A stretch of DNA of 64,000 nucleotides. Source: Haloplanus salinus (GTDB lineage: Archaea > Halobacteriota > Halobacteria > Halobacteriales > Haloferacaceae). Below, piece after piece: positions 43,836 through 44,505 of this stretch. The notes under the pieces are model-generated. The model searched no databases, was not told where the DNA came from, and saw only the letters and a list, made by a program, of their open reading frames with translations. Every line of letters begins with the position of its first letter. Position 1 is the first letter of the stretch. The position numbers and the translations under genes are program-made. The DNA lies in NCBI RefSeq assembly GCF_003336245.1, contig NZ_QPHM01000001.1:992001-1056000 (forward strand), given 5' to 3'.

Positions 43836-44505
43836 CTACTCGACGCGCGTGCTGATCTCCTCGGCGATGCGGCCGCCGGGGTGGCGGAGCGTCCCGCTCT
43901 CGACCTCGTAGACGTAGCCGTGGACGGTCGCGTCGATCAGCGGGTGTTCCTCCAGATACCGCACCTGCGCGGCGCAGGCCTCGTCGATGTCGTCAGAACG
44001 CGACCGCGTTCTGACTGCTAACCAGAAATCGAAGATTTCTGGTGATGTCGTCGGTCATCCGCACCCAGTCGGCGACCGAGGCGTCGCCGACGTTCAGGTC
44101 GGGGAGGGCGGGGTCGAGGTCCACGTCGTCCAGACTGCCGCCCGCCGCGGCTTCGAGTCCCTCGACGACGGCGTCGTCGGACGCGCTCATCATCCCGCAG
44201 TCGGTGTGGTTGATCACCATGATCTCCTCGGTGTCGAAAAACTGCGTCGTGAGCGCCGCCGACCGGATCACGTCGTCGGTGACCTTCCCGCCCGCGTTGC
44301 GGTAAATCTGGGCGTCGCCGAGTTCGATGCCGAGGGCGTCCTCGACGGGGATGCGCTCGTCCATGCAGGCGACGACCAAGAGTTGATCGTCGGTCGGAAT
44401 CCCCTTGCGCCGGCGTCGAGCCCAGTCGTCGTGGGCCTCGACGGCCTCGTCGACGTGTTCGTGGTGGTGCCCCGGTTCGTGGTCGTGGTCGTGGTCGTGC
44501 GACAT
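43836..44505 (-). pseudogene. Beta-class carbonic anhydrase interrupted by a 49-bp palindromic insert
   Basis: The N-terminal part keeps the beta-carbonic-anhydrase zinc site: Cys and the Asp-Arg pair in ACMDERIP, then HTDCGM. A His/Asp-rich leader DHDHDHEPGHHH precedes it. After MTDDI the insert diverts the frame and a TGA at 43993 ends a 170-residue product. Removing 58 bp (insert plus one 9-bp repeat) restores a 203-residue ORF whose lost end reads EACAAQVRYLEEHP...VHGYVYEVESG, a normal family C-terminus. The truncated form retains all metal ligands but lacks the last strand and helix, so it is probably inactive or unstable. Confidence 0.88.
43995..44043. mobile_element. 49-bp two-hairpin micro-element with 9-bp flanking duplication
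   Basis: Hairpin 1: AGAACGCG/CGCGTTCT around two bases (43995-44012). Hairpin 2: ACCAGAAATC/GATTTCTGGT with loop GAA (44021-44043). The element is flanked by GATGTCGTC at 43986-43994 and 44044-44052. The hairpins resemble end structures of haloarchaeal IS200/IS605-type elements (palindrome-associated elements), although those normally make no target duplication. Confidence 0.75.

Follow-up and report, generated by a model that had tools for sequence, protein, structure and literature searches.

An insert of 58 bp that interrupts a carbonic anhydrase gene of Haloplanus salinus is probably a non-autonomous, IS200/IS605-related haloarchaeal twin-hairpin element, PATE- or REP-like in kind, which would be moved by an enzyme acting in trans. 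It lies in a 64,000-nt stretch of contig NZ_QPHM01000001.1 (the window), and elements of its kind have inserted many times across Halobacteria. The 9-bp direct repeat that flanks it is a target duplication in appearance only, as the target is duplicated by CR at most. The analysis established its anatomy, its wide distribution, the empty counterparts of its insertion sites and the copies read in frame within conserved genes. What had looked odd for an IS200/IS605-like element, a duplicated target, now gives way to a rule of insertion backed by about a dozen empty sites.

On the + strand (43986-44052), two hairpins stand between a left copy (43986-43994) and a right copy (44044-44052) of GATGTCGTC, the arrangement that the initial annotation had described. 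The element itself is read on the - strand as TC-ACCAGAAATCttcGATTTCTGGT-TAGCA-GTCAGAACGCggtcGCGTTCTGAC-GACA (43988..44045); its extent follows from empty homologues and the fold, and its 58-bp register is supported by empty sites in other genes. Hairpin A (44021..44043), with a 10-bp stem and a 3-nt loop, is the conserved CCAGAA..TTCTGG hairpin of the family. The linker TAGCA (44016..44020; TRGC in the family) separates it from hairpin B (43992..44015), which has a 10-bp stem and a 4-nt loop, and GACA (43988..43991; RACR in the family) forms the element's own 3' end, so that the two hairpins lie only 2 and 4 nt from the termini. Directly 5' of the element are the target bases GACGACA (44046..44052, - strand); their likeness to the 3' end of the element gives rise to the apparent direct repeat at this copy. 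Folded as single-stranded DNA, the 58-mer forms precisely two hairpins, at -19.6 kcal/mol (z = -7.7 relative to shuffled sequences), and in 100 shuffles of the window the 3'-hairpin motif never appeared. The element is non-coding, as had been noted, and an Rfam scan of the locus returned nothing relevant, RF02656 (tnpB sotRNA) reaching the cut-off only near another locus, L050.

The interrupted gene (43836..44505, - strand) specifies a beta-carbonic anhydrase (PF00484). Its present reading frame comprises 170 amino acids and stops after codon 170, inside the element, because 58 bp is not a multiple of three and because of the element's orientation; the rest of the C-terminal part occupies 43836-43987, and the protein loses its last 49 residues through the insertion. 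Deletion of 58 bp, predicted from the sequence to restore a 204-codon frame, yields 203 amino acids plus the stop codon, the C terminus being the same as in six empty Haloplanus homologues, and these empty genes bear out that the insertion is real. A query with the N-terminal part of the protein matched in 11 of the 12 genomes of the genus, 10 of which could be read at the junction. The site is filled at the identical codon in four (the window's own genome, G000, together with G006, G007 and G008) and empty in the other six (G001, G003, G004, G005, G009 and G010); the insertion is likewise present in the gene of H. ruber R35.

This patchy occupancy is compatible with either precise loss or repeated gain. 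The filled genes, from four species, do not form a clade (AU p = 0.0001): that of G008 pairs with the empty gene of G010 (99/97), and that of G000 groups with the empty G004 and the filled G007. The site must therefore have been filled more than once or precisely vacated more than once, with exchange between species as a third possible explanation. The carbonic anhydrase query gave only fragmentary matches in G007 and G008, where the gene is thus in a more advanced state of decay. The insertion had also been called recent. That can be true at most of the window's own lineage and fails for the site as a whole, which is occupied in four species, including the two with these further decayed genes.

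The wider search that had been suggested, through the whole genome and related haloarchaea, found the exact 49-mer only once in the window's genome, but the hairpin-A motif recurs elsewhere in it and a looser pattern identifies 14 places there, the focal copy included. The same pattern is present in 104 of 170 genomes of the taxonomic family and reaches 64 matches in a single genome (G065), and an exact core occurs in 91 of 391 genomes, covering 31 of 84 sampled genera of the class, with no match for the reversed-pattern control. Members follow the consensus TC-ACCAGAAxyzNNNzyxTTCTGGT-TRGC..-hairpin B-RACR and measure about 51-58 bp. Although the inner stem bases of hairpin A were left free in the search pattern, they are fully paired in 59 of 72 distinct copies (about 19 in shuffles) and show 48 both-side covariation cells, compared with 16 in shuffles, no slid version coming near. 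Similar sequences of full length appear in named records, such as Natronomonas pharaonis plasmid PL131; a literature search with the motif letters retrieved unrelated matches only. Several sites have been occupied more than once, namely those in carbonic anhydrase (four species), DapA (G066 and G065) and RlmE (G062 and G065). The loops of hairpin A are mostly GGA, GAA, TTC or TCC, which form reverse-complement pairs, as if the hairpins were sometimes inverted.

We retrieved empty homologues by searching with the joined flanks of filled genes. Empty sites were found for FAH, DsbA-like, glyoxalase-like, DapA and RlmE genes, for an aldo-keto-reductase-like (AKR-like) gene (L108), for L105, L109, L110 and L112 and for the gene of L005, some of these gene names being assigned by eye. 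Filled and empty versions of about a dozen genes differ by a single added piece, TC...RACR, placed directly 3' of NNCR. With a slash for the insertion point, CTCGACA/CCGCG becomes CTCGACA-TCACC...GACA-CCGCG, and TTTTTGCA/TGAACGG becomes TTTTTGCA-TCACC...GACA-TGAACGG. The initial TC belongs to the element, because several empty targets lack it. The pairs reveal no further duplication, the dinucleotide CR usually being common to both sides.

These comparisons bear on whether the insert could be a classical MITE, carried by a DDE-type transposase that duplicates 9 bp of target. Such an element would explain why the focal copy is flanked by a 9-bp direct repeat without mismatches, as are L005 and all but one of the four carbonic anhydrase copies. 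We consider it extremely unlikely, however: the repeat is not of constant length, ranging from 0 to 11 bp over 85 copies with a mode of 2-3; shared terminal inverted repeats are absent; the carbonic anhydrase flanks of G008 differ from each other (GACGACATC and GACGATATA), with GACGACATAGACG in its empty sister G010; and the empty sites of the AKR-like L108, L110, L112, glyoxalase-like and DapA cases exclude it. The 9-bp target duplication of the initial annotation is thus rejected from the empty sites. Some copies, the focal one included, look duplication-flanked because the target consensus, CGTCGnCR/YC, resembles the junction of the element's CGTCRACR end with its TC start. In most copies the CR on the left matches that on the right (the last base does so in 79 of 85), and there may be a 2-bp (CR) target duplication. 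With the longer repeat only apparent, the unusual mechanism that had been invoked is superfluous, since an IS200/IS605-like reading needs none here.

The likeness between target and element ends also invites a reading in which a circular or linear intermediate with joined ends GACGACA/TC enters identical sites by base pairing, recombination or guided cleavage, the 9-bp repeat being a shared core. Five copies of the focal sub-lineage were found, four in carbonic anhydrase and one in the unrelated gene of L005, and every one of them lies at TGACCGACGACA/T, a target that, as empty relatives show, was present in both genes before insertion, and the family's target consensus matches the element's 3' end followed by its 5' TC. 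We nevertheless regard this target-matched, homing-like insertion as doubtful, if with some real chance of being correct: the sample of this sub-lineage is biased towards carbonic anhydrase, other members occupy sites that match only CR (TTTGCA/TGAA at L110; CCCA/CCC in a tnpB element), a similar copy (L043) stands at another site, and matching ends are equally expected of IS200/IS605-type cleavage sites. The focal sub-lineage may, even so, need a longer match between the target and its own joined ends. The L005 copy (G000:C1:1654616), the second of this sub-lineage in the window's genome, shares the same 18-bp sequence in an unrelated gene, and its hairpins are closer to those of the H. ruber carbonic anhydrase copy than to the window's own.

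The suggestion that the hairpins are of IS200/IS605 type finds support in a relation through tnpB 3' ends. In several genera, some tnpB elements of IS1341 type (L003, L007, L015, L017, L063, L087 and L260) include the subtype with TAGC in the linker as a conserved part of their 3' ends, where the guide RNA would be encoded; this subtype also overlaps an annotated 'transposase IS605' of Halobacterium sp. DL1. At L007 a TGGC-type copy is present as well, in opposite orientation. The focal insert might accordingly be what remains at the 3' end of such a tnpB element once its core has been deleted, devoid of independent mobility, just as terminal-only 52-bp remnants are known from Haloquadratum (PMC3119063). 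This we judge quite unlikely. In tnpB elements a further conserved right-end tail of about 50-70 nt comes after the TAGC unit, and the focal insert has no such tail; its ends are identical in kind to those of dozens of solo copies, the empty sites of which show that the unit, and nothing else, went in cleanly.

The preferred reading, an IS200/IS605-related element mobilized in trans, places the insert with transposase-free repeats such as PATEs because it combines the tnpB link, hairpins at both ends, a short target and no duplication. The element may move as a hairpin-bearing single strand on which a Y1/HUH-type enzyme, similar to IS200/IS605 TnpA or to a REP transposase, would act in trans. 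The cuts of such an enzyme would fall behind NNCR in the target and, at the 3' end of the element, behind RACR. The element is inserted directly 3' of NNCR (consensus CGnCR/YC), and the likeness of the target to the joined ends gives rise to an apparent direct repeat, 9 bp long in carbonic anhydrase. Like IS200/IS605 elements (TnpA/TnpB), the family has a hairpin near each end, inserts 3' of a short target (here NNCR), makes no duplication beyond the possible CR and has a 3' end that resembles the target. It differs from them in lacking an internal gene, and a search among Y1 genes for a cognate transposase (TnpA) bounded by these hairpins identified none. The single Y1 gene of the window's genome lies in a locus that lacks this hairpin. 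In genus g13, the loci of all 19 listed Y1 matches likewise lack it and none of these matches is a RAYT gene flanked by it, and no Y1 transposase was found in G061 (97% complete, genus g13), though elements are present there. We count against the preferred reading this negative search, the lack of a Y1 gene in G061, the CR agreement and the compactness of the ends; those of known IS200/IS605 elements are less compact.

Comparison with other short repeats sharpens this placement. PATEs, described with IS605-type transposons in Haloquadratum and Natronomonas (PMC3119063), are likewise transposase-free and haloarchaeal, have end palindromes and an IS605-type relation, lack terminal inverted repeats and target duplication, and use a short target oligonucleotide. 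Measured against that description, our family shares the near-terminal palindromes, the absence of terminal inverted repeats and target duplication, and the lack of coding capacity. According to that report, PATEs come about by the shortening of longer elements, and those of the 52-bp 'terminal-only' kind arise by deletion between repeats (19-22 bp) of the same near-terminal palindrome, whereas the twin-hairpin element, likened to them by description, is a constant compact unit of two different hairpins and occupies genes in frame, a behaviour not met with in the passages of PMC3119063 that were consulted. CGTC-tagged REPs (PMC3733652), and the REP/REPIN of RAYT transposases, resemble the family as very short hairpin repeats that are often paired and are also intragenic. 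The CGTC-tagged REPs, which have stems of 8-9 bp, loops of 4-5 nt and a CCA tail and have been reported from bacterial phyla (PMC3733652), share with it the tag beside the hairpin, once target bases are counted, and the lack of any dedicated transposase found; in the haloarchaeal family, however, the CG of CGTC is target DNA and not part of the element.

The habit of occupying genes in frame is the most interesting part of the finding. Copies in conserved genes of genus g13 (L130/L153, L118, L101, L104, L102, L115 and L112) and of some other genomes (L074 and L083) lie in frame in DapA, AroE, PurK, RlmE, FAH and DsbA-like, glyoxalase-like and arginine-deiminase-like proteins. They are read on the strand opposite to TCACC, and where empty sites are available their lengths are multiples of three: 57 bp in the FAH, DsbA-like, glyoxalase-like and DapA cases and 51 bp in RlmE. 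Each adds a peptide of 17-19 residues with a pattern common to all in-frame copies, for example VDESQRLSSANQSAKRSGDA, in which '..SSANQNA.RSGDV' recurs. RlmE carries an insert of 17 residues in G062 and two elements in tandem (36 residues) in G065 (L097) and lacks it in other species; its predicted structure with the insert is poor (mean pLDDT 37). By contrast, the carbonic anhydrase copy, of opposite orientation, 58 bp long and bearing a stop codon, is the harmful kind.

In this respect, the family behaves as an apparent archaeal counterpart of the Rickettsia palindromic elements (RPEs; reviewed in PMC10969869), which are palindromic mobile repeats that lie in frame in unrelated metabolic genes and add a conserved peptide; our elements, too, enter unrelated protein genes in a fixed frame. 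The likeness drawn here is one of behaviour; RPEs are bacterial and about 150 bp long (PMC10969869), the haloarchaeal elements archaeal and 51-58 bp. A search of the open-access literature found no report of in-frame palindromic elements in haloarchaea or archaea, which is not proof of absence. We see an even chance that this is a previously undescribed archaeal counterpart: a mobile twin-hairpin element, mostly of 51 or 57 bp and with one strand stop-free, that would spread in frame through housekeeping genes, adding '..ES..SSANQNA.RSGDV', and would choose its targets by their likeness to its own joined ends.

A mobile repeat found throughout the class and adding short peptides to DapA, AroE, PurK and RlmE provides, through its in-frame copies, naturally occurring cases in which to study how proteins accommodate insertions. 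It bears equally on which enzyme moves transposase-free hairpin repeats, a question that CGTC-type REPs and PATEs share. Other twin-hairpin inserts, with GCGGGATC..GATCCCGC followed by a second hairpin, occur at or near tnpA at the Y1 transposase genes L034 and L149, which suggests that there are more families of such elements.
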